A DNA stretch of 42,914 nucleotides from an uncultured Bacteroidia bacterium (GTDB lineage: Bacteria; Bacteroidota; Bacteroidia; Bacteroidales; UBA932): contig CACZKE010000022.1 of assembly GCA_902781705.1 (NCBI GenBank), positions 1 to 42,914 of the forward strand. The letters are read 5' to 3'. This document shows, piece after piece, positions 5,699 through 19,582 of this stretch; the stretch's first letter is position 1, and every line of letters starts with the position of its first letter. A program made the position numbers and the translations under genes. The notes below the pieces were generated by a model. That model was not told where the DNA came from. It saw only the letters and a program-made list of their open reading frames with translations, and did not search any database.

Positions 5699-5739
5699 AT
5701 TTCTCGACTTCGCTCGAAATGACAGAAAATGACAGAATA
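5697..5739. repeat. Dispersed palindromic repeat with doubled tail, copy 4
   Basis: AGATTTCTCGACTTCGCTCG is followed by AAATGACAGAA and a second AAATGACAGAA. The second copy contains the ATG start codon of the aminotransferase gene, and the left edge overlaps the TAG stop of the DUF3737 gene. Confidence 0.75.
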
Positions 5740-6916
5740 CAACTTCGATGAAATCATCCCCCGCCTGGGAACGGCGAGCGTGAAATGGGACGAGTTCGAG
5801 CCGGACGCCCTGCCCCTTTGGGTGGCCGACATGGACTTCAAGGCCTCCCCGGCCATCCTGGCAGCCCTGCAGCGCCGGCTGGACCATGGAATCTTCGGCT
5901 ATGAACTGCTGCCGCAGTCTTACTTCGACGCCATCGCCAACTGGTTTGACAGAAGGCACGGCTGGAAGGGCATCACCCGGGAGCACGTCATCCCGACGAC
6001 CGGCGTCATCCCGGCCTATTCCGCCTGTATCAAGGCCATGGCCCGCGTCGGCGACAATGTGATCGTCCAGACGCCGGTGTACAACGCCTTCTTCCCCGCC
6101 ATCCGGAACAACGGTTGCCGAGAACTTTGCAACACGCTGGTTTACAAGGACAATACTTATACGATCGACTGGGAGGACCTGGAAAAGAAGGCCGCCGATC
6201 CCAAGACCACGGTCATGCTGGTGTGCAACCCGCACAACCCGGCCGGCCGCGTGTGGACCCGGGAAGAGTTGGAGCGCATCGGCCGGATCTGCCTGAAGCA
6301 TGGGGTGTTCGTCATTTCCGACGAAATCCACTGCGAACTCACCTATCCCGACCACGACTATACGCCGTGGGCCACCCTCCCGGAGGAACTGGTCCGGAAC
6401 TCCGCCACCTGCTTCTCCCCCACCAAGTCCTTCAACATCGCCGGCATCCAGATCGCCAACATCTTCGCCGCGGATCCGGACGTGTGCCGCCGCATCGACC
6501 GGGCCATCAACGACAACGAGTGCTGCGACGTGAACGTGTTCGGCGCCACGGCCCTGGAAGCCGCCTACAATGAGTCGGAGCAGTGGCTGGACGCGCTGCG
6601 TGCCTACCTATGGGAGAATGCGAAGACGGTCTATGCCTTCCTGTCCGAAGAACTTCCCCAGGTGACGGCCCTTCCGCTGGAAGGCACCTACCTGATGTGG
6701 CTGGACTGCCGCGCCGCCCGCCACGAAGGCGAGCCCTTCGAGGGCTTCTCCGAGCGCTTCGCAGACCACCTGCGCCACCGCGCCAAACTCGTCCTTTCCA
6801 CCGGCACCATCTACGGGGCCGATGCCGAAGGTTTCGAGCGCCTGAACATCGCCTGCCCCCGCGCCACCCTCCTGGAGGGCCTCCGGCGACTCAAGGAAGG
6901 TTTCCTGAACTACTAG
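5729..6916 (+). CDS. patB: MalY/PatB-type PLP-dependent C-S lyase
   Basis: A 395-residue fold-type I PLP enzyme of the MalY/PatB group, which cleaves C-S bonds of cystathionine and related cysteine conjugates to a thiol, pyruvate and ammonia. The N-terminal NFDEIIPRLGTASVKWDE and ALPLWVADMDFK segments are typical of this group. CNPHNPAGRVW carries the PLP-contacting Asn, SDEIHCEL the PLP-pyridine Asp, and SPTKSFNIAG the Schiff-base lysine. The C-terminus includes a substrate Arg region (LNIACPRATL). The start ATG lies inside the duplicated tail of a repeat copy. A strong bidirectional terminator follows at 6956-6990. Activity as an aminotransferase cannot be excluded from sequence alone. Confidence 0.88.
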   Translation: MTEYNFDEIIPRLGTASVKWDEFEPDALPLWVADMDFKASPAILAALQRRLDHGIFGYELLPQSYFDAIANWFDRRHGWKGITREHVIPTTGVIPAYSACIKAMARVGDNVIVQTPVYNAFFPAIRNNGCRELCNTLVYKDNTYTIDWEDLEKKAADPKTTVMLVCNPHNPAGRVWTREELERIGRICLKHGVFVISDEIHCELTYPDHDYTPWATLPEELVRNSATCFSPTKSFNIAGIQIANIFAADPDVCRRIDRAINDNECCDVNVFGATALEAAYNESEQWLDALRAYLWENAKTVYAFLSEELPQVTALPLEGTYLMWLDCRAARHEGEPFEGFSERFADHLRHRAKLVLSTGTIYGADAEGFERLNIACPRATLLEGLRRLKEGFLNY

Positions 6917-8552: not shown

Positions 8553-8828
8553 GTTGTCCACCCACACCCAGAGCCGGTACATCAGCCAGCCCCAGGCCAG
8601 GAAAAGGACGATATGGACCCAGACCGGGACCTTCGTGTGGTAGACATCGTCCCGGACGACCTTGTCGAAGCCCGGGATATCGGCATAATAGTAGGCCCCG
8701 GCGCCGAAATCGTAGTCCGGAGAGAGGCCCAGCCGGTTCGCCATGATATAGACGGCGCAGCCCAAAATGGCCACGACCGCGAGGGCCGTGACCACTTTGA
8801 ACAGCGTATTCCGCCGACGGTTTGCCAT
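8541..8828 (-). CDS. Small two-helix membrane protein
   Basis: A 95-residue protein with two predicted membrane helices, about residues 9-29 (LFKVVTALAVVAILGCAVYI) and 67-90 (VPVWVHIVLFLAWGWLMY), joined by a loop rich in Asp and Tyr (DYDFGAGAYYYADIPGFDK). The start ATG overlaps the TAA stop of the YeiH-type transporter by one base, so the two are translationally coupled and the small protein may be an accessory subunit of the transporter. I do not recognise a named family. Confidence 0.75.
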   Translation of the reverse strand: MANRRRNTLFKVVTALAVVAILGCAVYIMANRLGLSPDYDFGAGAYYYADIPGFDKVVRDDVYHTKVPVWVHIVLFLAWGWLMYRLWVWVDNRKS

Positions 8829-10168
8829 TACTTGTACAGATCCAGCACCGGAATCTCGAACAGGACGCCGGACAGGAGCAGCCACACCGCGAAGAAGGTC
8901 AGGGCGATGTTGAAGAGCTGACCCACGACATACAGCCACAGGACCTTGCCGCCCTGCATCTGCTTCGCGATCTCCCGGAAGTTGGTATCCAGGCCGATGG
9001 AGGTGAATGCCAGTACGAAGCACCAGTTCTTGTACTGGTCCAGCACGCCGTTGATGGCCTTCACGCTGTCCGTTCCGGCCAGGGGCTGGATCAGGAAGGA
9101 GGCCACGAGGGAAGCCACGAAGAAGCCGATGATGAACTTCGGGAACCGGTTCCAGATCTCGCCGGCGCCCACTTTCTTCCCTTCGGTCTTGTCCACGCGG
9201 GTGGCGAAGAACAGGGCCACGAAGAAGGCGATGAAGCCGATGAGGATGTTCTGGATGCTCTTCACCAGGACCGCGGCCTGCTCGGCCTCCGGGCCCAGGG
9301 CGTTGCCGGCGAGGACCACCGCACCGGTGGAATCGACCGTACCGCCGATCAGGGCGCCGCCCATCAGCTGGCTCATGCCGGTCGCCCGGATGATCATGGG
9401 TTCGAACACCATCATCAGGATGGTGAAGATGATGGAAATGGAGATGGCGATTCCGAGGTCATTTTTCTTGGCGCCGGCGGCAGCACCCGTGGCGATGGCC
9501 GCGGAGGTGCCGCAGACGGAGGTCGCCGCCGCAAGGGTGATGACGAGCGGCTTGTTGCCGATCTTGAGGACCTTCGTCCCGAACCACCACATGAAGATGA
9601 TGACGATGGGGGTGACGATCCAGGCGATGCCCAGTCCGTAGAGGCCGAACTTGGCGATGTTGCTGAACAGCACCGAGAAGCCCATGATCACCAGGCCGGT
9701 CTTGATGTAGAACTCGGTCCGGATGGCGGGCCGGAGCCACTGGGGAACGCCCACGGTGTTGGAGATCAGCAGGCCCACGATGAGGGCCCAGAAGGCCCAT
9801 TCCAGATACCGGTTCAGGGTGAACTCGGCGCTGATGAGCCGGACGACGACGGCGAGGACGAACAGGCACAGGAACGCGGGGACGAATTCCTTGACCTTGC
9901 CGCCCTGCAACTTCACGCCCAGGGTGAACAGGACGCCCAGCACCAGGAAGGTGCGGAGGAGTTTCACCCAGAAAGCGCCATTGAGTTGCGCCAGAAGCGA
10001 CTTCTTTTCGGCGACATCTTCCCAAAGGTGCCAGGTGGAGAACTTGGCGGCGGCGAATTCAAAGGCGCCGGTGAGCACCGCGATGCACGCGATGGCGATG
10101 ACGGCGAAGCCGATCCAGACGGCCAGCCAGTCTTCGGTCTTGTAAAGTTTGGAGAGGTTCGTTTTCAT
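8828..10168 (-). CDS. YeiH family (UPF0324) transporter
   Basis: A 446-residue integral membrane protein with about 10-12 hydrophobic helices and the family signature ATSVCGTSAAIATG in the middle, followed by GGTVDSTGAVVLAG. The family (PF03601) is annotated as putative sulfate exporters, and members often sit near sulfur genes, but substrates are poorly established. A long soluble insertion-like segment (KFSTWHLWEDVAEKKS) lies between the first helices. It lies 67 bases downstream of cysteate synthase, with a repeat copy in between. In this context sulfite, sulfate, cysteate or another sulfonate is a reasonable substrate guess, not shown by the sequence. Confidence 0.82.
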   Translation of the reverse strand: MKTNLSKLYKTEDWLAVWIGFAVIAIACIAVLTGAFEFAAAKFSTWHLWEDVAEKKSLLAQLNGAFWVKLLRTFLVLGVLFTLGVKLQGGKVKEFVPAFLCLFVLAVVVRLISAEFTLNRYLEWAFWALIVGLLISNTVGVPQWLRPAIRTEFYIKTGLVIMGFSVLFSNIAKFGLYGLGIAWIVTPIVIIFMWWFGTKVLKIGNKPLVITLAAATSVCGTSAAIATGAAAGAKKNDLGIAISISIIFTILMMVFEPMIIRATGMSQLMGGALIGGTVDSTGAVVLAGNALGPEAEQAAVLVKSIQNILIGFIAFFVALFFATRVDKTEGKKVGAGEIWNRFPKFIIGFFVASLVASFLIQPLAGTDSVKAINGVLDQYKNWCFVLAFTSIGLDTNFREIAKQMQGGKVLWLYVVGQLFNIALTFFAVWLLLSGVLFEIPVLDLYK

Positions 10169-10183
10169 TTCGGTTCGGATTTT

Positions 10184-10238
10184 AGATTCTTTCGCTTCGC
10201 TCAGAATGACAAGGGATTATCAGAATGACAAGGGATTA
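10184..10238. repeat. Dispersed palindromic repeat with doubled tail, copy 5
   Basis: AGATTCTTTCGCTTCGCTCA is followed by GAATGACAAGGGATTA and then CAGAATGACAAGGGATTA again. The TTA ending the second unit (10236-10238) is the stop codon of cysteate synthase on the minus strand, so the end of the gene is part of the tandem duplication. Confidence 0.8.
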
Positions 10239-11519
10239 AAACAGGGCGCTCACGCGGGAGACGATCTCCTCGGCCGGAAGGTCCGGGGAAAGGACCAGGT
10301 CGGGATCCTTGAGGGAGAAGCCGCGGGCCATGGCCCCGAGGACACCGCCGCCGGTGCAGTTGAGCATGATGTATTCGTCCTTCTTCACGGTCCCTTCCCG
10401 GACGGCCTTGGCGAGGGCGGTCACGGCTACGCAGGACGCCGGAAGGAGGTCGTACCCTTCCCGGTTCCGGAACTGGAGGAGCCAGTAGATGATATCGTTG
10501 TTGCTGGCGAGGTAGAAGTCGCCGCCGCTGGCTTTGAGCGTGTCATACAGGCCGCCGGCCAGGCTGTACGGAGGTTTCCGGTTGGAAAGGACGCTGGCAA
10601 GGACCACCTCGGCCTCGTGCCGTCCCTTCTGGGGATCCAGGTCCACGAGCGCACGGGAGCCGGCCTTCCAGGAATCGTACATGAGCGTAAAAGGATCGTT
10701 CTGGGCCACATACACGCGCATCCGGTTCTCCCCGAAGCGGCCGTCTTCGGCCAGGCGGCAGGCGTTCTCCCAGGCGGCGATGGCGCCGGTACCGGACCCG
10801 ACGGCCTGAAAATAGGCATCGGGGATGCGGCCCATCTTCTCCACGCAACTGAGGACGGTCGTGCCCATGCCGTCGCGCCGGGCCACGTTCTTGGCACCGC
10901 CCTCCAGCATAAAGCGGGGATCGGAGGCCAGTTTCTCGCCCAGGGTGATGGCGTCGTAGTAGTCACATCCGTGCGGAACAGCGATCAGTTTCACGCAGGA
11001 GCGGAGCGGACGGCGGAACCAAAGGTCATGCAGGCTGTCCTCCGGCACGCAGATGACAATGGGAATGCGGTTGTCGGAACACACCTGCGCGAAAGCCCGG
11101 GCGGTATTGCCAGCCGACTGGACGACGAGGATCCGCTTCTCGCGGGCATCCATGCGGGCGAGGACGGAGTACGCCTCCGTCTCCTTGAAGGAGCAGGTGC
11201 GCATCTTGGCGCCGATCCGGGGATTCCACCCCGAGAAAGTGATATACAGGTTTTCCAGGCCCAGGAACTGGGCCAGACCCTTGGACTTATACGTCACCGG
11301 GGCGCAGGATTTCCGGAGCGTCCGTTTAATGGGCATCCAGTCCGCGTAGCGGTAGATGCCGTCCTGGTCTTCCCGCGGGTTGAACCGCTTGTTGTCATAA
11401 ACGGCCCGGACGAGGGAAGGAGCGCCGCCTTCGGGGTCGCTCATCGTCCAGCCCTTGTCTTCGAATTCACGGCCGTTGCCGACATTCACCAGGTGGTACT
11501 TGGTAGGTTCGAATCTCAT
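10236..11519 (-). CDS. Cysteate synthase
   Basis: A 427-residue PLP enzyme of the threonine-synthase superfamily. Cysteate synthase (EC 2.5.1.76) replaces the phosphate of O-phospho-L-serine with sulfite to give L-cysteate. Segments I recognise from the cysteate synthase branch are KSKGLAQFLGL, MRTCSFKETEA with the likely Schiff-base Lys112, VVQSAGNTARAFAQV, EGGAKNVARRDGMGT, YFQAVGSGTGAIAAWE and LNCTGGGVL. The zinc-finger-like N-terminus of archaeal relatives is absent. In methanogens the product feeds coenzyme M; here the neighbouring oxoamine synthase and SDR point to capnine and sulfonolipids. The start codon overlaps the end of the Hdr membrane gene by 4 bases (ATGA type). Confidence 0.88.
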   Translation of the reverse strand: MRFEPTKYHLVNVGNGREFEDKGWTMSDPEGGAPSLVRAVYDNKRFNPREDQDGIYRYADWMPIKRTLRKSCAPVTYKSKGLAQFLGLENLYITFSGWNPRIGAKMRTCSFKETEAYSVLARMDAREKRILVVQSAGNTARAFAQVCSDNRIPIVICVPEDSLHDLWFRRPLRSCVKLIAVPHGCDYYDAITLGEKLASDPRFMLEGGAKNVARRDGMGTTVLSCVEKMGRIPDAYFQAVGSGTGAIAAWENACRLAEDGRFGENRMRVYVAQNDPFTLMYDSWKAGSRALVDLDPQKGRHEAEVVLASVLSNRKPPYSLAGGLYDTLKASGGDFYLASNNDIIYWLLQFRNREGYDLLPASCVAVTALAKAVREGTVKKDEYIMLNCTGGGVLGAMARGFSLKDPDLVLSPDLPAEEIVSRVSALF

Positions 11520-13345
11520 ATCGTATCAGGTTTCAGTTTTCCGTCAGTATTCAGGTCCACGATCTCCGCCAGGTCCCGGACCGGCCGGTCGGCATAGCGG
11601 GCGAAAGTAGCCGTGCAGAGCGGGCAGGCCGTAGCGATGGCATCGGCCTTGCTCGTGTACAGGTTGTCCAGGGCAGCGCGGGTAATCTTCTCCCGTTTGG
11701 CGAAGGAAAGGGACAACGAGCCCAGGGAGCCGCCGCAGCACACGCTCTCGGAACGGTTCTTCTCCGCTTCGGCGATGCCGGACAAGCGGCCCAGCAGACG
11801 CCTCGGTTCCTCGTAGATGCCGCAGCCGCGTCCCAGTTCGCAGGGATCGTGATAGACATAGCACAGGTCTCCCCTTCTGGAAAGGAGTCGGCCTTCCGCC
11901 AGGAGTTCCTCCATGTAATGGACATAATGGATCACCCGGACGCCGGGAAGGCTGTATTCCTCCGTGAACATCTTGTAGCAGATGGGGCAACTGACCACCA
12001 TCGTATCGGCCCCGGACCCCAGGATGATCTCCGTGTTCTTCCGGACGATCTCCCGTGCCTCTTCCAGGCGGCCTGCCGTGAGCATGGGCCTGCCGCAGCA
12101 TACGCCTCCGTCGCGGTCCATCCAGCAGTAATCCACGCCTGCCTTCCGGAAGATGGATTCCATGCTCCGGCCGATGGAAGGGACCAGTTGACTCATGCAG
12201 CCGCTGTAATACAGCACCTTACCACCCGTAGCCGCTCCGGAGAGCGTTCCGGTGGGGATATCGGAATAATCGGCCTTCACGGCATATTTCCGTTCGGCCC
12301 GGTTCAGGACCCGCAGTTTCGGTCCCTCGACACCCACCTGGCACACGGCTTCGCACTTCCCGCAAAGGAGGCACTTGTCGCTGATTTCCGCAATGCGGCG
12401 TTCATTGCCGCGCCGCATCTGCCGGGTCAAATACACGGTGCAGTCCTTCAGGTTCGCCTTGTCCACGCTCATCGGGCAGGCGTCGATGCACACGCCGCAG
12501 TTCGGGCAGGAATACACCTGCACCCGTGCAAAGCCCTTCCGGGCATGGCGGACTTTCAGGCCGGCGTTGCGCATCGGGATGAGCATCATCTCGGCCGGAA
12601 TATGCATGTACCGCGTAAAGGGCAGCACGAACATGAACACGCCCAGCGCGATGGAATAGGCCCACCAGGTCGGAAGCATGTTCAGGTCGTTGCCCAGGAA
12701 CTGGCGGAAAACCCAGTTCGCGGGAATTGTCAGGAAGGATCCGCCGCTGATATGGGCGGTGAAACTCTCGGCCAGCAGGCGCAGCGGGAAAATGGCCCAG
12801 AGGGAATACAGGCCGATCTGGTTCAGCAGCGACGGCCGGGCGGTACGCCGCATCCCGAACAGGCGGGAACGGACGCGCTTGACCATCGCCAGGCCGATGC
12901 CGCTCAGGATCACCAGCAGGAAGAAATCCATCAGGAAGAACAGCAGGGATCCCTGGATGGTGGAATCGGTCTCCGCCACGAAGAAATTGAAGAAAATCGG
13001 ATAGTAGAACAGGTGGATCCGCTCCGGGAGGAACAGCATCACCTCGATGTGTCCCAGGACGATGAGCATGAACCAGCCGAAGGCGATGCTAGAATGCATG
13101 TAGCCCAGGAGGCGGTTCCGCTTCCACAGTTTCACGTGCAGGAGGCAGTCGCAGAAAATGTCCCGGATGTTCTTCAGGAACGTCCTGGGGGTGATGAGCG
13201 ACAGGAGGAATCTCTTCCGGTCTTCGCCGGGGAGCTGGACGAGGATCCGGACGATCCCGTACACGCAGTACCCCAGCACGAAGATCATGCCCGCCAGGAA
13301 GGGGAGCACGAACGGATGGAAGCCGGATGAGAATCGCTCAATCAT
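11516..13345 (-). CDS. Membrane HdrE-HdrD fusion (DsrMK-like) oxidoreductase
   Basis: A 609-residue fusion. The first 250 residues hold about five membrane helices (near 12-34, 78-102, 131-155, 176-196, 226-246) with several histidines (84, 99, 111, 248) that could ligate haem b, as in HdrE, DsrM and NarI. Two ferredoxin clusters follow: Cys280/283/286/290 and Cys325/328/331/335. Then two complete CCG domains: Cys383, 416-417, 453, 456 and Cys502, 536-537, 574, 577, the pattern that binds the non-cubane clusters of HdrD. Such proteins pass electrons between the quinone pool and a thiol/disulfide or a soluble partner. It overlaps the short HdrC gene by 8 bases and cysteate synthase by 4. The physiological substrate is unknown. 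Confidence 0.82.
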   Translation of the reverse strand: MIERFSSGFHPFVLPFLAGMIFVLGYCVYGIVRILVQLPGEDRKRFLLSLITPRTFLKNIRDIFCDCLLHVKLWKRNRLLGYMHSSIAFGWFMLIVLGHIEVMLFLPERIHLFYYPIFFNFFVAETDSTIQGSLLFFLMDFFLLVILSGIGLAMVKRVRSRLFGMRRTARPSLLNQIGLYSLWAIFPLRLLAESFTAHISGGSFLTIPANWVFRQFLGNDLNMLPTWWAYSIALGVFMFVLPFTRYMHIPAEMMLIPMRNAGLKVRHARKGFARVQVYSCPNCGVCIDACPMSVDKANLKDCTVYLTRQMRRGNERRIAEISDKCLLCGKCEAVCQVGVEGPKLRVLNRAERKYAVKADYSDIPTGTLSGAATGGKVLYYSGCMSQLVPSIGRSMESIFRKAGVDYCWMDRDGGVCCGRPMLTAGRLEEAREIVRKNTEIILGSGADTMVVSCPICYKMFTEEYSLPGVRVIHYVHYMEELLAEGRLLSRRGDLCYVYHDPCELGRGCGIYEEPRRLLGRLSGIAEAEKNRSESVCCGGSLGSLSLSFAKREKITRAALDNLYTSKADAIATACPLCTATFARYADRPVRDLAEIVDLNTDGKLKPDTI

Positions 13346-13655
13346 AGATCCTGCACAAATTCAATATCAACTGGCGTGTATTGATGCCCCGGGGACAGAC
13401 CATCGTGCACTTGCCGCACAGCATGCACCCTTTGAGCATCGGACGGACATCCTGTCCACGCTGCAGGCCCAGGATCACCTTCCGGAGGCTCATCCCGCTG
13501 TAGGGCCCGGCCGTGCAGGTGGCGCTGCAGGAGCCGCAGCCCATGCAGGTACGCGCATCCGGCGACAGGCTGCACAGTTTCTCGTACAGCCGGGTGTCGG
13601 CCTTGGACAGGTCCAGGGCGGAACTCCTGGAAAGCGTGAATCCGAAATCCGTCAT
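13338..13655 (-). CDS. Short HdrC-like ferredoxin protein
   Basis: A 105-residue iron-sulfur protein with two 4Fe-4S motifs: Cys37/40/43/47 (CMGCGSCSATCT, with Thr where Pro is usual) and Cys77/80/83/87 (CMLCGKCTMVCP). This is the HdrC pattern, carrying electrons between the flavin subunit and a CCG subunit. I chose the ATG at 13655 because it overlaps the HdrA-like stop codon as ATGA and gives a protein of normal HdrC size; the frame stays open upstream only because it is antisense-free GC-rich DNA. It is the second HdrC-type protein in the cluster; the other is encoded at 15736-16431. Confidence 0.82.
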   Translation of the reverse strand: MTDFGFTLSRSSALDLSKADTRLYEKLCSLSPDARTCMGCGSCSATCTAGPYSGMSLRKVILGLQRGQDVRPMLKGCMLCGKCTMVCPRGINTRQLILNLCRIYD

Positions 13656-14665
13656 TTGCCTTGAATGAATCGATGGATGTCCAGGGCGGCGGAACGCGCC
13701 TCCGCCAAAGTCTCGGGGACGGTCTTCGTTCCCGTACAGGCACCGGCGTAGAAGATGCCGGGACGGTTGGAGCCCACGATACCGGAAATGTTGTCGGCAC
13801 TCCGGAGGAAACCGTCGCTGTCCATTTCCAGCCGAGCCATCCGCGCCAGTTCCGCCGCTTCGGGATTGCACACCATGCCGGCCATGAGGACCAGCAGGTC
13901 CAGCTGCGCCCGCAGCGGCTTTCCGGACAGCGTGTCCTCCGCCTTCACCTGCAGGTGCCCGTCCAGGGTTTCGCCCACCTCGGAGACACGGCCGCGGATG
14001 AACTGCACCCCGTATTCCTGCTGGGCATTGATATAAAAGTCCTCGTATTTCTTCCCGAACAGGCGGAGGTCCATGTAGAAGCAATAGATCTGCGCATCGG
14101 GGAAATGTTCCTTCATCTCGATGGCCTGCTTGACGGCGGTCATGCAGCATACCTTGGAGCACTGGCTGTTCCCCGCCTTCAGGTCGCGGGAGCCCACGCA
14201 GTGGACGAAGCCCACCTTCTTCGGGGAGGCAGGAACACGGGGATCGGGATTTCCGTTGAACCAGTTTTCCAGGTCGGCGTTCGTGATGACATGGTCATAC
14301 ACGCCGTACCCGTACTCTTCCTTCCGGGCCGCATCGAACAGACGGAAACCCGAGGCGACGAGGATGGCGCGGCAGGCGACGCTGACGCCGTTGCTGAGCA
14401 TCACGAGATACCCCTCCCTGAGGCGGTTGATAAAGTTCACCTTCGTTTCCAGGAAGATGTTCGCATCCACGATCTCCTCCCCCAGGTGCCGGACCAGGTC
14501 CTGGGCGGAAGCCATGTCCGGGAACAGGCGGTTCCACTGCGAAACGTGGCCGCCCAGGTGGTCTTTCTGTTCCACGACGATGGGGGTGTATCCCAGGAAG
14601 AGCAACTGTTTCGCCGCCTCCATCCCGGCCACGCCGCCGCCGATGATGACTACATTCTCCTTCAT
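13652..14665 (-). CDS. HdrA-like flavin iron-sulfur subunit
   Basis: A 337-residue HdrA-type protein. The N-terminal GGGVAG dinucleotide motif (residues 9-14) binds FAD. The HdrA-specific cysteine set is present: Cys156 in HCVGSRD and Cys169/173/174 in CSKVCC. The C-terminus has YAGACTGTKTVPET, matching the AG(T/A)C-x-G-x-K-x-(I/V)PET segment of HdrA. It lacks the extra ferredoxin domains of methanogen HdrA and is close in size to the short flavoproteins of the Qmo and sHdr systems, so classical electron bifurcation is less likely. It is followed by the short HdrC gene (ATGA overlap) and lies 3 bases after HdrB. Confidence 0.87.
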   Translation of the reverse strand: MKENVVIIGGGVAGMEAAKQLLFLGYTPIVVEQKDHLGGHVSQWNRLFPDMASAQDLVRHLGEEIVDANIFLETKVNFINRLREGYLVMLSNGVSVACRAILVASGFRLFDAARKEEYGYGVYDHVITNADLENWFNGNPDPRVPASPKKVGFVHCVGSRDLKAGNSQCSKVCCMTAVKQAIEMKEHFPDAQIYCFYMDLRLFGKKYEDFYINAQQEYGVQFIRGRVSEVGETLDGHLQVKAEDTLSGKPLRAQLDLLVLMAGMVCNPEAAELARMARLEMDSDGFLRSADNISGIVGSNRPGIFYAGACTGTKTVPETLAEARSAALDIHRFIQGK

Positions 14666-14668
14666 CGC

Positions 14669-15739
14669 CTAAAAGCATTTGAGGTTCGTGGGAAGTTCGG
14701 GACGCAGGATGTCTTCCTTGTTGAGTCCCAGGTACTTCGCCTTGGGGTCGTACCGGACGCCGATCCGGTCCAGGAAAGGTTCCACCGCCACCTGGTGCAA
14801 CTGGAGCCCCAGGTCCCAGGGATCGTAGCCCAGCACCAGGCCGGCGAGTTCCTCGTAGGTGAACACCGGGATGCCGAAACCGTCCTTCCCGTAGGTCTTT
14901 CCGGTCTGCTCGGCGATGACATACTGCCAGCGGTCCATGAAATAGCAGCAGCCCGGGCAGTTGGTCAGGATGGCCTGGATGCCGTACGGCTCCATGGACT
15001 CGAATTTCTTGTGGGTATTGGAGACACAGTAGCCGCGGTTCGCCTTCATGTGGTACTGGCGGAAGCCGTAGCCGCAGCAGTGGCGCCGCTCCGGATAATC
15101 GACGACCTGGCCGCCCCAACTTTCAATCATGCCCGCGAGGACATAGGGATATTCCGCCCCGCCGATCCCCTTGGAAGGGAACATCTTCGCATAGTGGCAG
15201 CCGATGTGTTCGGCCATCCGCATGGGCTCGCCCGTCTCGTGGTCGATGAGCCGGACGCTGGCTTTCTCCGCGATCTCGTTCCGCCAGTGGTAGATCAGGT
15301 CGCTCGTATGGGCCAGGTACTTGGGCTTCTTGAACTCGCGCCGCGTGGCCTTCCAGAGCTGTTCCCGGATCCGGGCTTCCAGTTCCGGGAACTCGCGCCA
15401 AGTCTCCAGGATCTCGATGTAGTTGCCGAATGATGTGACGCAACTGGGCACGTAGTTTTCGTACCCGGCCTCCGTCATCAGGGCGAACTGGCGGGCGACG
15501 ATGGTCATCGCCGTCTCCTGCGGGATGGCGTCGCAGTGGTAGGCGATGCCTCCGCAGGTGGTATGGTACGGCGTCTCATAGACATCCTTCCCCAGCACCT
15601 GCTGCGTGATGTCGGTGAACTTCCGCTCGCTGGCGGGGAAGAAATTCTGTCGGATACAGCTCCGGACATAGTACCAATGGTCGTCCGGGATCTCCTTCTG
15701 GTAGTCCTTCCAGATCTTCTGCTTGCCCTCGTAGATCAT
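14669..15739 (-). CDS. HdrB-like CCG-domain subunit
   Basis: A 356-residue HdrB-type protein with two CCG domains. The C-terminal one is complete: Cys181, Cys221-222, Cys261 and Cys264, as needed for a non-cubane 4Fe-4S cluster. The N-terminal one is degraded: Cys28, Cys62 (TCGG instead of CCGG) and Cys100, with the second cysteine of the CxxC replaced by Ser or Phe. Only one catalytic cluster is therefore expected. HdrB subunits carry out the disulfide or thiol chemistry of the complex. The start overlaps the HdrC stop as ATGA. A tail of about 60 residues after the second CCG domain has no recognised motif. Confidence 0.85.
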   Translation of the reverse strand: MIYEGKQKIWKDYQKEIPDDHWYYVRSCIRQNFFPASERKFTDITQQVLGKDVYETPYHTTCGGIAYHCDAIPQETAMTIVARQFALMTEAGYENYVPSCVTSFGNYIEILETWREFPELEARIREQLWKATRREFKKPKYLAHTSDLIYHWRNEIAEKASVRLIDHETGEPMRMAEHIGCHYAKMFPSKGIGGAEYPYVLAGMIESWGGQVVDYPERRHCCGYGFRQYHMKANRGYCVSNTHKKFESMEPYGIQAILTNCPGCCYFMDRWQYVIAEQTGKTYGKDGFGIPVFTYEELAGLVLGYDPWDLGLQLHQVAVEPFLDRIGVRYDPKAKYLGLNKEDILRPELPTNLKCF

Positions 15740-16431
15740 TCGTTGAAATGTTTGTCCGAGCTGTACTCGAATGCGGCCCTCTCATATTCTTCCAGGGACA
15801 GGCCCATCTCCTCCGCCTTCCGGCGGGAGTAATCCTCCACGAGGCGGATGCGCTCGGTGGCGCCCGTCACGTCGAAGATGGCCTTCAGTTCATCCAGGGA
15901 TTCCTGCGGAATCTTCCGGAGGACACCGGGGCCTTCGCCCTGGTAGTTCGCGCCCAGCCGGGCCAGACTCTTCTCCAGATGGTCCATGTGCCATTTCCAG
16001 ACGGGTCCGGACTCCTTGTGGTCGTTCCAGTCGAAGGTGGCCGGATACACGCAGTATCCGTATTCCAGGATGTTGCGGGTGAAGGTATGGGTCAGGGGGA
16101 GCATCTGGCGGCCCTTCTCCGACTCGGTGAAATACCCCAGCCGGATGCTCAGGTCGCGGAGGGCCATGATCACCATGCCGGGTCCGTTCTTGCGCGGGCA
16201 GCGCGTCACGCAGCTCATGCACTCCCCGCAGTACCAGATGGTATCGGAGCGGAGGAGGGCCTCGATCTGCGCGTCGTCACGGGTCTGGACGATGGATACG
16301 ATCTTCCGCGGATCATAGCGATAGAACTCCGCGGCGGGACAGACGGCCGTGCACGTGCCGCAGTTGATGCACGTGTGATACCCTTCCTTGAAGCGGTAGT
16401 CTTTCTCCAGTTCCTCGAAAAGATGATCCAT
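15736..16431 (-). CDS. HdrC-like ferredoxin subunit
   Basis: A 231-residue protein with two canonical 4Fe-4S motifs near the N-terminus: Cys21/24/27/31 (CINCGTCTAVCP) and Cys68/71/74/78 (CGECMSCVTRCP), followed by about 150 residues of helical sequence. This is the HdrC layout, longer than the second HdrC of this cluster. I chose the ATG at 16431 because it lies 2 bases after the SDR stop codon and leaves a normal HdrC N-terminus; the upstream open frame is only the out-of-frame image of the SDR gene. It presumably moves electrons between the HdrA- and HdrB-like subunits. Confidence 0.85.
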   Translation of the reverse strand: MDHLFEELEKDYRFKEGYHTCINCGTCTAVCPAAEFYRYDPRKIVSIVQTRDDAQIEALLRSDTIWYCGECMSCVTRCPRKNGPGMVIMALRDLSIRLGYFTESEKGRQMLPLTHTFTRNILEYGYCVYPATFDWNDHKESGPVWKWHMDHLEKSLARLGANYQGEGPGVLRKIPQESLDELKAIFDVTGATERIRLVEDYSRRKAEEMGLSLEEYERAAFEYSSDKHFNE

Positions 16432-16433
16432 GG

Positions 16434-17219
16434 CTACATCGGCTTGATGACTCTCGCCAGACGGGCGCAGAGGCCCGGGAAGAAGCGCTTGATATACACC
16501 ATGATCAACTCCTTGCTGCCCACGAGCACCTCGCGGCGGCCCTTGGTGATGGCGTTCACGATGATGCGGGCGGCCTTCTCGACCGTGATGCCGCCGGCCT
16601 GGCCCGGATCCATCTTCCCGTGGGGCTTCCCGCCCTTGTCCAGGGCGCGGAGCGAGATGTTCGTCCGCACCCGGCCCGGGCAAACGAGCGTCACCCGGAT
16701 GCCCTTGTCATAGTATTCCGCCTGCAGGGACTCGAAAAAGCCGTACAGGGCGGACTTGGCGGAACAGTAACCGCAGCGGAGCGGGAATCCGAACTTGCCG
16801 GCGATGGATGTCGTCACGCCGATATGTCCGCCGCCGCGGGCCACCATCCGGGGAAGGAGTCCCTTCGCGATGGCGGCCGGGGCGAAATAATCGATCTCCA
16901 TGATCGTCCGGACCATGTCCATCGTCGTATCCTCCACGGAGGTACGCTGGCTGATGCCGGCGTTCAGATAGGTGATGTCGATGCCGTCGAAGGCTTCCCA
17001 GGCCGTCTGGACGAGGGCCGGGATACCTTCGGGCTTGCTCAGGTCATAGGGAAGGACGCAGACGTCCGGAGCGCCTTTCTCCCGGCAGCGTGCCGCGACC
17101 GGTTCCAGTTCTTCGGTGGTGGGAGCCGTCAGGATCAGACGGACTCCCTGCGCCGCCCAGCGGTAGGCGCAGGCTTCCCCGATTCCAGAAGAACCTCCTG
17201 TGATCCAAACGGTTTTCAT
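16434..17219 (-). CDS. SDR reductase, likely 3-ketocapnine reductase
   Basis: A 261-residue classical short-chain dehydrogenase. TGGSSGIG (residues 7-14) is the cofactor-binding motif, LNAG (85-88) the structural motif, and Ser138, Tyr151 and Lys155 (YCSAK) the catalytic residues. The C-terminal hydrophobic segment (VYIKRFFPGLCARLARVI) resembles membrane-associating tails of 3-ketosphinganine reductases. It begins within the stop codon of the oxoamine synthase (TAATG overlap), so the two are translated as a pair. From this context it probably reduces the 3-keto group of 3-ketocapnine, the product of condensing cysteate with a fatty acyl group. That specificity is inferred. Confidence 0.82.
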   Translation of the reverse strand: MKTVWITGGSSGIGEACAYRWAAQGVRLILTAPTTEELEPVAARCREKGAPDVCVLPYDLSKPEGIPALVQTAWEAFDGIDITYLNAGISQRTSVEDTTMDMVRTIMEIDYFAPAAIAKGLLPRMVARGGGHIGVTTSIAGKFGFPLRCGYCSAKSALYGFFESLQAEYYDKGIRVTLVCPGRVRTNISLRALDKGGKPHGKMDPGQAGGITVEKAARIIVNAITKGRREVLVGSKELIMVYIKRFFPGLCARLARVIKPM

Positions 17220-18484
17220 TACTTGTACAGGGAAACGTCCGGAATGGGCTTGTCGTATTCACCGCGATCCAGCCGCTCCTTGATCTCCTTGAAGGCGGCG
17301 AGGGTGCGCTCGACGTCCTCCATCGAGTGGGCCGCCGTCGGGATGATGCGGAAGATGACCATGCCCAGCGGGATGACCGGATAGATGACCACGGAGCAGA
17401 AAATGCGGTAGTTCTGCCGGAGGTCCACGACGATGTTCGTCGCCTGCTCCAGGCCGGCCTCCATGTGGACCGGGGTCACGCAGGCCTCGGCCGGGCCGAT
17501 GTCGTAGCCCAGTTCGCGGAAGCCTTCCTGCAGGCGGCGGGTCACCTTCCACAGATGGGCGCGGCGCTCGTCCCCTTCGGGGCTGTCGATGATCTCGAGA
17601 CGTTTGATGCAGCCCTCGACGATAGGCATCGGCAGGGACTTCGCATAGATCTGGGAGCGCATGTTGTAGCGCAGGTAGTCGATGATGTCCTTGTCGGAAG
17701 CGACGAAGCCGCCGATGGTGGCCATCGCCTTCGCATAGGCGCCGATGTACAGGTCCACGCCGTCCATCACGCCGAAGTGCTCGGAGGTGCCGCGGCCGTG
17801 GGGACCCATCACGCCGAAGCCGTGGGCGTCGTCGATCATGAAGCGGAAATTGTACTTCTTCTTCAGGGCCACGATCTCGTCCAGGATGCCCAGGGCGCCG
17901 GTCATGCCGAACACGCCCTCGGTGATGACGAGGATGCCGCCGCCGCTGGCATCGGCCACCTTGGTGGCGCGGGCGAGGACGCGGTCGCAGTCCTTCGCAT
18001 CGTTGTGGCGGAACTTGAATTTGTCGCCGATGTGGAGGCGGATGCCGTCCAGCAGGCAGGCGTGGCACTCGGCGTCATACACGATGACGTCATGCCGGCC
18101 CACGAGGGAGTCGATCGTGGACAGGATGCCCTGGTAGCCGAAATTGAACAGGAAGGCGGCCTCCTTCTTCTCGAAATCGGCGAGCATGCGCTCGAGTTTC
18201 TCGTGGAGGACCGTCTGGCCGGTCATCATGCGGCTGCCCATCGGGTAGGCCATACCCCAGCGGGCGGCGGCCTCGGCATCGACCTTGCGGATCTCGGGAT
18301 GGTTTGCCAGACCCAGGTAGTTGTTCAGGCTCCAGCACAGGACCTCTTTCCCGGCGAAGCGCATATGGGGACCGAGTTCACCCTCGAGTTTGGGGAAAGC
18401 GAAGTAACCGTCGGCCTTCTCACGGTACTGGCCGATGGGACCGCCGGTGGAACGGCGAATCTTTTCGAAAATGTCTGTCTGCAT
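17219..18484 (-). CDS. Alpha-oxoamine synthase, likely cysteate fatty-acyl transferase
   Basis: A 421-residue PLP enzyme of the family that includes serine palmitoyltransferase, AONS and KBL. Visible features are NNYLGLANHP, the ring-stacking His141 in ECHACLLDG, DDAHGFGVMG (PLP Asp and His), and the likely Schiff-base Lys252 in AYAKAMATIGG. SPT-type enzymes join an amino acid to a fatty acyl thioester with loss of CO2. Because cysteate synthase is in the same block, the amino acid here is most likely cysteate, giving 3-ketocapnine, as for SulA of Alistipes finegoldii. Serine (sphingolipid synthesis) is the main alternative and cannot be excluded by motif alone. Confidence 0.85.
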   Translation of the reverse strand: MQTDIFEKIRRSTGGPIGQYREKADGYFAFPKLEGELGPHMRFAGKEVLCWSLNNYLGLANHPEIRKVDAEAAARWGMAYPMGSRMMTGQTVLHEKLERMLADFEKKEAAFLFNFGYQGILSTIDSLVGRHDVIVYDAECHACLLDGIRLHIGDKFKFRHNDAKDCDRVLARATKVADASGGGILVITEGVFGMTGALGILDEIVALKKKYNFRFMIDDAHGFGVMGPHGRGTSEHFGVMDGVDLYIGAYAKAMATIGGFVASDKDIIDYLRYNMRSQIYAKSLPMPIVEGCIKRLEIIDSPEGDERRAHLWKVTRRLQEGFRELGYDIGPAEACVTPVHMEAGLEQATNIVVDLRQNYRIFCSVVIYPVIPLGMVIFRIIPTAAHSMEDVERTLAAFKEIKERLDRGEYDKPIPDVSLYK

Positions 18485-18496
18485 GGCAGTTATGGT

Positions 18497-19582
18497 TTAA
18501 GGTTTTACTTTTTCACGGGAAACGAGCCCCATCGCCCGGAACAGGAATTTCGGAAGGGGCTTGAGCGGGTCGCGCTTTTTCATGTCGATGAACCAGCCCA
18601 GTTTCTTCACCACCGGGACCTTGTGCGTCTCGACGAACTCGATCAGGGTGCCGTCGGGATCCTCGATGTAGGTGAAGTGGCCGGAGGCGTCGCCCATGTC
18701 GAAGGTGATGCCGCCCGGGCAACTGTCCACGGTGAAGGGATGGCCCTTGGACGCGCAAAAGTCCCCGAGGGCCTGCATGCCGGTCACGTCATAGCAGATC
18801 TGGATGAAGCCGGGGTCGCCCCAGTAGCGTCCTTCGAAGATCTTCCGGGGCGTGCGGTCCAGCGCCTGCACCAGTTCGATGCAGTCCGGACCCATCAGGC
18901 CGGAAAACGCCCCCTGACGGCGATGGGAAAGGGTCAGGAGGACCCGGCGGTATCTTTCGTCCGCTCCGGGAAGGAGGGTCCAGTCGGCAAAGACGCCGGT
19001 CTTGTCATACACCACGGTGTCGTAGCCCAGGATTTCCTGATAGAAGGCCACGGACTTGTCCATGTCGGTGACACCCACCACGGCGCCGGCCATGCCGCCG
19101 GTCAATTTGCCTTCGTCAATGTACAGATAATCCGTCTGCACGAGTTGGAAGCAGTTGCCGTAGAGGTCCTTGACATAGAAGCAGGGCGTCCCGTCCGGAA
19201 GGGTGGACGGCTCGCTGACGTCCTTCCACTTGGCCGAGAGCATCTTGTAGCAAGCCGCGACGTTCCGGCAGTTGAGTTTGGCGGCGAAAACGCCGAGGTC
19301 GCCCGTCGCAACGGTGAAGCCCACCGGCTGCGGCTTCCTTTCGGAATATTGCCAGATTTCGAAACCGCCGCCACCCTGCAGGTTCACGGCGATGGCGGCA
19401 TGGCGCTTCTGCGCCTTCCCGCCCGTATAGGGGAGCATCCGCTCCGCCACCGTATCGTCTTCCAGGATCCGGACATCCGTCCCGAAGTGCTCGATGAACC
19501 AATTCCAGGATTTCCTGAAATCGGCCGTCCCGACACCCACCTGCTGGATGCCTGAGATATTGAATCCGCGCTTTTCGTTCAT
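18497..19582 (-). CDS. Two-domain VOC (glyoxalase-fold) protein
   Basis: A 361-residue protein with two vicinal-oxygen-chelate domains, roughly residues 8-165 and 166-315, each having the paired beta-alpha-beta-beta-beta pattern (ISGIQQVGVGTADF; AGAVVGVTDMDKSVAFYQEILG; GHFTYIEDPDGTLIEFVE). VOC enzymes use a divalent metal for isomerase, dioxygenase or lyase chemistry. A basic C-terminal tail (KKRDPLKPLPKFLFRAMG) may associate with membranes. I chose the ATG at 19582 because it follows the TAAATTTG promoter box and the mature fold begins at once. It is the first gene of the sulfonolipid block, 12 bases before the oxoamine synthase; which step it serves is not known to me. Confidence 0.8.
   Translation of the reverse strand: MNEKRGFNISGIQQVGVGTADFRKSWNWFIEHFGTDVRILEDDTVAERMLPYTGGKAQKRHAAIAVNLQGGGGFEIWQYSERKPQPVGFTVATGDLGVFAAKLNCRNVAACYKMLSAKWKDVSEPSTLPDGTPCFYVKDLYGNCFQLVQTDYLYIDEGKLTGGMAGAVVGVTDMDKSVAFYQEILGYDTVVYDKTGVFADWTLLPGADERYRRVLLTLSHRRQGAFSGLMGPDCIELVQALDRTPRKIFEGRYWGDPGFIQICYDVTGMQALGDFCASKGHPFTVDSCPGGITFDMGDASGHFTYIEDPDGTLIEFVETHKVPVVKKLGWFIDMKKRDPLKPLPKFLFRAMGLVSREKVKP

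Follow-up and report, generated by a model that had tools for sequence, protein, structure and literature searches.

The window analysed here is the whole 42,914-nucleotide contig CACZKE010000022.1 from an uncultured bacterium of the order Bacteroidales, whose genome (G000, 3.07 Mb) has as its nearest named relatives rumen and gut Bacteroidales metagenome-assembled genomes (MAGs), some of them titled Candidatus Cryptobacteroides. A unit of nine genes runs along its minus strand from 19582 to 10236 and joins enzymes of sulfonolipid synthesis to five genes resembling heterodisulfide reductase (Hdr) subunits. The gene order is VOC-SulA-SDR-HdrC1-HdrB1-HdrA-HdrC2-HdrB2-CysS, profile matches placing the five Hdr-type genes between a short-chain dehydrogenase/reductase (SDR) and cysteate synthase (CysS). 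From the first gene to the last, the junctions measure +12 (VOC/SulA), -1 (SulA/SDR), +2 (SDR/HdrC1), -4 (HdrC1/HdrB1), +3 (HdrB1/HdrA), -4 (HdrA/HdrC2), -8 (HdrC2/HdrB2) and -4 bases (HdrB2/CysS); the third value takes the ATG at 16431 as the start of HdrC1, and a start at 16437 would give -4. Open reading frames (ORFs), profiles and gaps confirm all nine genes and the one-strand layout that an earlier note on this stretch had reported, and the range of -8 to +12 bases agrees with its overlaps of 1-8 and gaps of at most 12 bases.

CysS (10236..11519, minus strand, like all genes of the unit) passes the curated equivalog model TIGR03844 with 432.1 bits (cut-off 324.9) and aligns over its full length with the solved cysteate synthase 9k3c (498 bits). 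The oxoamine synthase at 17219..18484 has its best solved match in 7u7h (567 bits), which we take to be Alistipes finegoldii SulA, and also matches 28eh, a solved cysteate-C-fatty acyltransferase (CFAT), with 545 bits. In the 7u7h alignment its K252 and K282 fall on the pyridoxal phosphate (PLP) lysine and on Lys281, and both are conserved in 43 of 43 rows. Lys281 is described as separating cysteate transferases from serine palmitoyltransferases, the lysines of A. finegoldii SulA being given as Lys251 and Lys281 (PMC9304779). Judged by its sequence, the enzyme is a SulA/CFAT, a cysteate acyl-ACP (acyl carrier protein) transferase that keeps the cysteate-specific lysine. The adjoining SDR (16434..17219, PF00106) is, by position and family, a candidate 3-ketocapnine reductase. 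The first gene (18497..19582, PF00903) encodes a two-domain VOC protein of the glyoxalase/dioxygenase fold, and it adjoins SulA in most SulA loci, whether Hdr is present or not. Its AlphaFold2 model (pLDDT 88.7) matches GLOD4, glyoxalases and extradiol-type enzymes at the level of fold alone, and a comparison with solved structures gave no sequence match at E 0.01; assigning a role from the fold was therefore dropped.

The Hdr-type proteins retain the residues expected of iron-sulfur subunits. HdrC1 (15736..16431) and HdrC2 (13338..13655, Fer4 families) each carry two [4Fe-4S] motifs, with eight invariant cysteines over 78 and 76 rows, respectively; HdrC models match HdrC1 below cut-off. HdrB1 (14669..15739, PF02754) has a complete C-terminal and a degenerate N-terminal CCG motif (78 rows), reaches 114 bits against a solved HdrB and is likewise matched by HdrB models below cut-off. 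HdrA (13652..14665) is a short flavoprotein of 337 aa that aligns end to end with 6tjr (349 aa, 199 bits), presumably an sHdrA, and partially with full-size HdrA. Its C156, C169, C173 and C174 are conserved in 77 rows, and the cysteines align with those of 6tjr. The methanogen equivalog models fail by a wide margin, at 253 of 1100 bits (HdrA2), 122 of 450 (HdrB) and 85 of 350 (HdrC).

HdrB2 (11516..13345) is modelled as a single chain that unites the helices of a NarI-like membrane domain, two ferredoxin-type [4Fe-4S] clusters and two complete CCG domains. Its predicted fold is closest to EtfD of Mycobacterium smegmatis (9ojn), with 19% identity over aligned residues; DsrMK-type structures are absent among the fold matches listed, which excludes nothing. 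H70, H84 and H248 are invariant. On this model the protein looks built for electron transfer to quinone, and a haem and a quinone site would be expected in its membrane domain.

The arrangement was followed through named loci (L handles; G handles denote genomes), which are the best 80 of 149 relatives and for that reason biased to close kin; L115 and L255, L105 and L256, and L070 and L259 are duplicate handles with identical rows. Of the 76 informative loci, 36 have HdrB2 immediately 5' of CysS and in the same orientation, within 130 bases in 35 of them; in L098 the aligned part of HdrB2 stops 829 bases before CysS. Otherwise SDR (10 loci), SulA (6) or none of the ten genes under study (24) stands upstream, and four contigs start at CysS. 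All five Hdr genes keep one order in 33 of the 36 Hdr-bearing loci, the remaining three being cut by contig ends, and with this recurrence the arrangement is more than a chance one. Close relatives without Hdr show a 4-base overlap of SDR and CysS at the same place (L066, L067, L070, L072, L075 and L259); compared with the window, G298 (L259) lacks the block as a whole. On a CysS tree of 89 rows, the block must have come or gone at least nine times, six of these changes being forced by well supported branches; loci whose CysS is short or whose upstream sequence is insufficient were omitted from the counts.

The surroundings of the pair vary. In L257 the order is Na/Ca exchanger-Hdr-CysS-MscS with SulA not nearby; an exchanger-like gene accompanies CysS in L262 too, where Hdr is absent. 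The pair follows a TrmA-like gene in L163, L165 and L203, again with SulA not nearby, and in L204, from another genus, it stands between a MarR-like gene and a SulP transporter. The TrmA-like label was given by eye, as were the exchanger, MscS and MarR labels outside L156, L257 and L258, except for the MarR matches given below. Distances among linked Hdr and CysS sequences correlate (r 0.83, 41 loci), as shared descent predicts. Because the block precedes CysS in varied neighbourhoods and in two genera, the conserved bond is that between Hdr and CysS: the block is a real unit bound to CysS, and the link to SulA and SDR is an outer layer. The synteny of cysteate synthase and Hdr genes that the earlier note proposed to look for in relatives is thus present, within one family only among the order-sampled genomes.

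The Hdr tree includes 41 linked loci, 15 of which lack SulA within the stretch, and in methanogens cysteate synthase belongs to the coenzyme M pathway. Both points would suit a coenzyme M-like route with a methanogen-like pairing, in which Hdr acts as a reductase on a cysteate-derived thiol cofactor. We hold this to be very improbable, as SulA accompanies CysS in 33 of the 35 genomes of the genus that have CysS, and the Hdr scores lie far under the methanogen cut-offs.

Genes of the MarR type add a hint of shared control. One lies 2-22 bases before HdrC1 in Hdr operons unlinked to CysS (L156-L161) and in L204, and 13 loci, some with Hdr and some without it, have a related gene 3-57 bases downstream of CysS and convergent with it (L082, L086, L098, L099, L100, L103, L104, L106, L116, L125, L126, L258 and L260). 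The two types are 32-37% identical, one representative of the second having been compared. Further matches in L078 and L083 are 2.5 and 3.5 kb from CysS, and the window stretch itself has no MarR match.

Sulfur-trafficking genes also stand near Hdr homologues in two further families of the order, near a full cassette in G366 and with only an extra HdrC1-HdrB1 pair in G368. In G366, cassette L150 lies about 1.3 kb from the genes of L254 (8077-17999), with one opposite-strand gene between; these comprise two DsrE-family genes, TusA, an FlpD-type gene and HdrA/QmoC-like genes. In the gene listing, an ORF on the opposite strand hides the HdrC2 of L150. The G368 pair has another gene between its two members and belongs to a cluster (L253, 1-16316) in which two TusA genes, a rhodanese gene, HdrA-like genes and a sulfur-transport gene of the YeeE/YedE type are found along with one weak match of DsrE type. 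A plasmid of Picosynechococcus sp. PCC 7003 (L170, 6242-11982) repeats the order of the five genes, although its HdrB2 is short (290 aa); they are followed by a gene for an FAD protein resembling sulfide:quinone reductase (SQR), which reaches 83 bits against an SQR-model cut-off of 525. Taken together, these neighbours point to sulfane sulfur as a substrate, without proving it.

Two further features of such loci were seen. A PLP enzyme of Cys/Met metabolism follows HdrB2 directly in L150 (10974-12152). G663 has a second HdrC1-HdrB1 pair (L205, 9108-11172) beside a PF02579 protein of the dinitrogenase iron-molybdenum cofactor type, apart from its CysS-linked Hdr.

Cysteate synthesis by CysS raises the question of sulfite supply. 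PF01507, the PAPS (phosphoadenosine phosphosulfate) reductase family, which we take to cover CysH- and CysD-type proteins, has no match in G000 and none in 32 of the 37 genomes of the genus that bear CysS or SulA (17 with Hdr, 15 without); G000 and most of its sulfonolipid-positive relatives therefore need a source of sulfite. Among open-access titles and abstracts, we found no literature linking sulfonolipid or cysteate synthase to heterodisulfide reductase or sulfite in bacteria, and in the open-access literature no description of where anaerobes that lack assimilatory sulfate reduction obtain the sulfite for cysteate.

A gene that the earlier note left out of this finding fits the sulfur theme of the unit. 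Located 67 bases downstream of CysS (8828..10168, minus strand), it encodes a putative sulfite/sulfate transporter of the YeiH family, with 171 bits for PF03601 (above cut-off) and 86 bits for TIGR00698, which fails its cut-off of 232.6. By sequence it is a homologue of sulfite-handling proteins, and YeiH is found near CysS in relatives also. In Hyphomicrobium denitrificans, the sHdr system is reported to release sulfite and YeiH is a proposed sulfite exporter (PMC12423496, PMC11582611); YeiH of Salmonella is described as the main sulfite-resistance factor, its mechanism being left open by the authors (PMC12880088). Leaving out seven SulA loci in which YeiH was undeterminable, YeiH occurs in 15 of the 16 SulA loci that lack Hdr and in 6 of the 21 that have it, the window being one of these 21 (raw p 1.3e-4). 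Over all 74 loci, an average of 3.5 of 6 independent pairs change in opposite directions and 0.1 in parallel (p 0.125); the exclusion rests on few independent events and is not taken as proof. About 1.9 kb beyond YeiH, on the plus strand (5729-6916), lies a PatB-type C-S lyase gene (TIGR04350, 412.9 bits, cut-off 340), also found at the same place in L062-L068; its product might supply sulfide or persulfide.

YeiH confers sulfite resistance in Salmonella (PMC12880088), and its homologue in the window comes directly after CysS. The system could thus also serve detoxification: Hdr would oxidise sulfane sulfur derived from excess sulfide to sulfite, mainly for disposal or for its electrons, with CysS and YeiH as sinks and the lipid as a by-product. 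The SQR-like gene of the cyanobacterial cluster is in line with this. The tendency of Hdr and YeiH to exclude each other in SulA loci, on few independent events, and the conserved active-site residues of SulA speak against it, and we consider detoxification distinctly unlikely.

The explanation that we favour, at close to an even chance, is that the five subunits form a membrane-anchored, lipoate-independent sHdr-like module that makes sulfite for CysS and passes electrons to menaquinone. HdrC1-B1-A-C2-B2 would oxidise protein- or thiol-bound sulfane sulfur to sulfite in the cytoplasm, at the HdrB-type non-cubane iron-sulfur centres of HdrB1 and/or HdrB2. Electrons would travel by way of the HdrA flavin and the iron-sulfur relays, reach a haem/quinone site within the membrane domain of HdrB2 and pass on to menaquinone. 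CysS would then combine sulfite with O-phosphoserine to L-cysteate, SulA would condense cysteate with acyl-ACP, the SDR would reduce 3-ketocapnine, and YeiH may handle surplus sulfite. We infer the substrate, the direction of the reaction and the flow of sulfite to CysS from several lines of evidence: the conserved adjacency of HdrB2 and CysS across neighbourhoods and genera, the block being wholly there or wholly missing at one place in close relatives, a gene order equal to that of the sulfite-releasing sHdr minus hyp with an sHdrA-like HdrA, and the sulfite-related YeiH. The sulfur-trafficking genes near the G366 cassette and the extra G368 pair, the SQR-like plasmid gene, the membrane anchor and invariant histidines of HdrB2, the rarity of PF01507, the presence of CysS or SulA in every Hdr genome of the genus and the related MarR genes at unlinked Hdr operons and at CysS point the same way. 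We know of no other step of the sulfonolipid pathway that would need such a complex. A wider proposal, somewhat doubtful as yet, is that this is an anabolic, anaerobic and sulfate-free sHdr-type route that brings the sulfur of cysteine or sulfide into sulfonolipid, evolutionarily exchangeable with YeiH-type sulfite transport.

The genes were also counted across genomes of the genus, the order and the phylum. Among 49 genomes of the genus, 33 have CysS and SulA, two CysS only, two SulA only and 12 neither; Hdr occurs in 21, all of them with CysS or SulA, and in none of the 12 that lack the two (Fisher p 0.0004). Adjacency of Hdr and CysS is seen in six of the 20 genomes with both, and contig breaks may hide some cases. 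Since the MAGs are 58 to 100% complete, absences lean high. In a sample of 295 genomes of the order, 33 have Hdr and CysS, 57 Hdr only, 48 CysS only and 157 neither, with HdrB1 homologues (54-100% identity) in 90. A survey of the phylum matched HdrB1 in one of 395 genomes, the window's own, and is uninformative because the order was thinly represented in its sample. A loose search for the cysteate-synthase family gave mostly below-cut-off matches (6 of 296 genomes above cut-off) and was dropped.

A number of results weigh against sulfite supply by Hdr. On an rpoB tree of 31 of the 49 genus genomes (17 had no match and G320 a fragment), there are only two changes of the lipid trait, too few for a kinship-aware test to decide, and independent pairs give no significance; the co-occurrence in the genus, although significant by Fisher's test, was for this reason rejected as proof. 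Hdr is missing from 15 of the 35 CysS-positive genomes of the genus, and 15 sulfonolipid-positive ones, several of them incomplete MAGs, show neither Hdr nor PF01507; Hdr thus does not supply all sulfonolipid makers of the genus with sulfite and may be one of at least two solutions to the need for sulfite. Order-wide, the odds ratio is 1.9 (p 0.023, uncorrected for kinship), with 57 of 90 Hdr genomes lacking CysS and 48 of 81 CysS genomes lacking Hdr. Most of the fetched order-level cassettes have no telling neighbour, no shared companion gene of the stand-alone ones was seen by eye in L203-L222, and the full cassette of G368 (L151) lies outside the sulfur cluster, just the extra C1-B1 pair being inside. 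In the window contig no match to GCV_H, the family searched for LbpA, was found; G000 has one strong and one weak match elsewhere, and G360 and G347 carry Hdr without any. TusA was sought in G000 and not found, and DsrE, TusA and rhodanese are absent from the ten proteins of the unit, DsrE and rhodanese not having been searched for genome-wide. Finally, standard potentials are about -116 mV for sulfite/sulfide, -270 mV for sulfur/sulfide and -74 mV for menaquinone. On these values, the potential of the couple of sulfane sulfur and sulfite would be close to that of menaquinone or slightly above it; the oxidation would lie near equilibrium and would need a pull, by CysS and by fumarate reduction.

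The wide spread of HdrB1 homologues, the many Hdr genomes without CysS, the cassettes without a telling neighbour and the EtfD-like fold of HdrB2 would also be expected of a general redox module, an EtfD-like thiol/disulfide or flavoprotein:menaquinone oxidoreductase that stands in the operon by chance or co-regulation and does not feed CysS. We regard this as unlikely, though worth serious consideration: HdrB2 directly adjoins CysS in many loci of two genera, within the genus Hdr occurs only in lipid-positive genomes, and sulfur-trafficking genes stand near the G366 and G368 homologues. The earlier note's idea that Hdr works in the same pathway as CysS is supported in part, by the CysS-bound unit, the sulfite-forming relatives, the apparently quinone-linked HdrB2, the adjacent YeiH homologue and the missing PF01507. 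A general part for Hdr in sulfonolipid synthesis is not supported, given the CysS-positive genus genomes without Hdr and the order-level Hdr genomes without CysS; of the co-occurrence that the note proposed to check, the nesting in the genus stands, while the order-wide association is weak and kinship-aware tests are not significant.

Gut Bacteroidota make bioactive sulfonolipids, and sulfite supply by Hdr, if true, would provide a gene-level candidate for their sulfite source and help to explain the origin of sulfite in oxygen-free gut bacteria. It would also extend to anabolism a type of complex otherwise familiar from energy metabolism, imply that an sHdr-type complex can do without its lipoate-binding partner, and offer a testable function for the Hdr cassette whose HdrB1 is so common in the sampled order.

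Several known systems share parts of this unit. The sulfonolipid (capnine/sulfobacin) pathway of A. finegoldii and Chryseobacterium gleum has the same cysteate synthase, SulA/CFAT with Lys281 and SDR-type reductase. The account in PMC11211663 gives kcr (3-ketocapnine reductase) genes as unclustered with cfat and Cys, whereas in the window all stand in one unit with Hdr. Methanogen HdrABC shares HdrA, HdrB and HdrC subunits and CCG clusters; the window differs in an HdrA without flanking domains, in two C and two B subunits and in far lower equivalog scores. EtfD is an ETF (electron-transfer flavoprotein)-linked quinone reductase. The predicted HdrB2 shares its one-chain layout (9ojn), as well as that of other NarI-plus-CCG membrane reductases, but its partners are HdrC1-B1-A-C2 and not ETF. 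The closest likeness in gene order is to the sHdr-LbpA system of H. denitrificans and others, described in PMC6067878 as hdrC1B1A-hyp-hdrC2B2 and as always associated with LbpA genes. The two have in common the order C1-B1-A-C2-B2, a YeiH companion, sulfite as the expected product and a short HdrA of the same architecture with a conserved C..C..CC set. The window cassette has neither hyp nor LbpA. Plain membership was rejected for want of the LbpA association, and the cassette is classed as sHdr-like rather than as sHdr. What sets it apart within this kind is the fusion of HdrB2 to a membrane domain and an apparently anabolic role.

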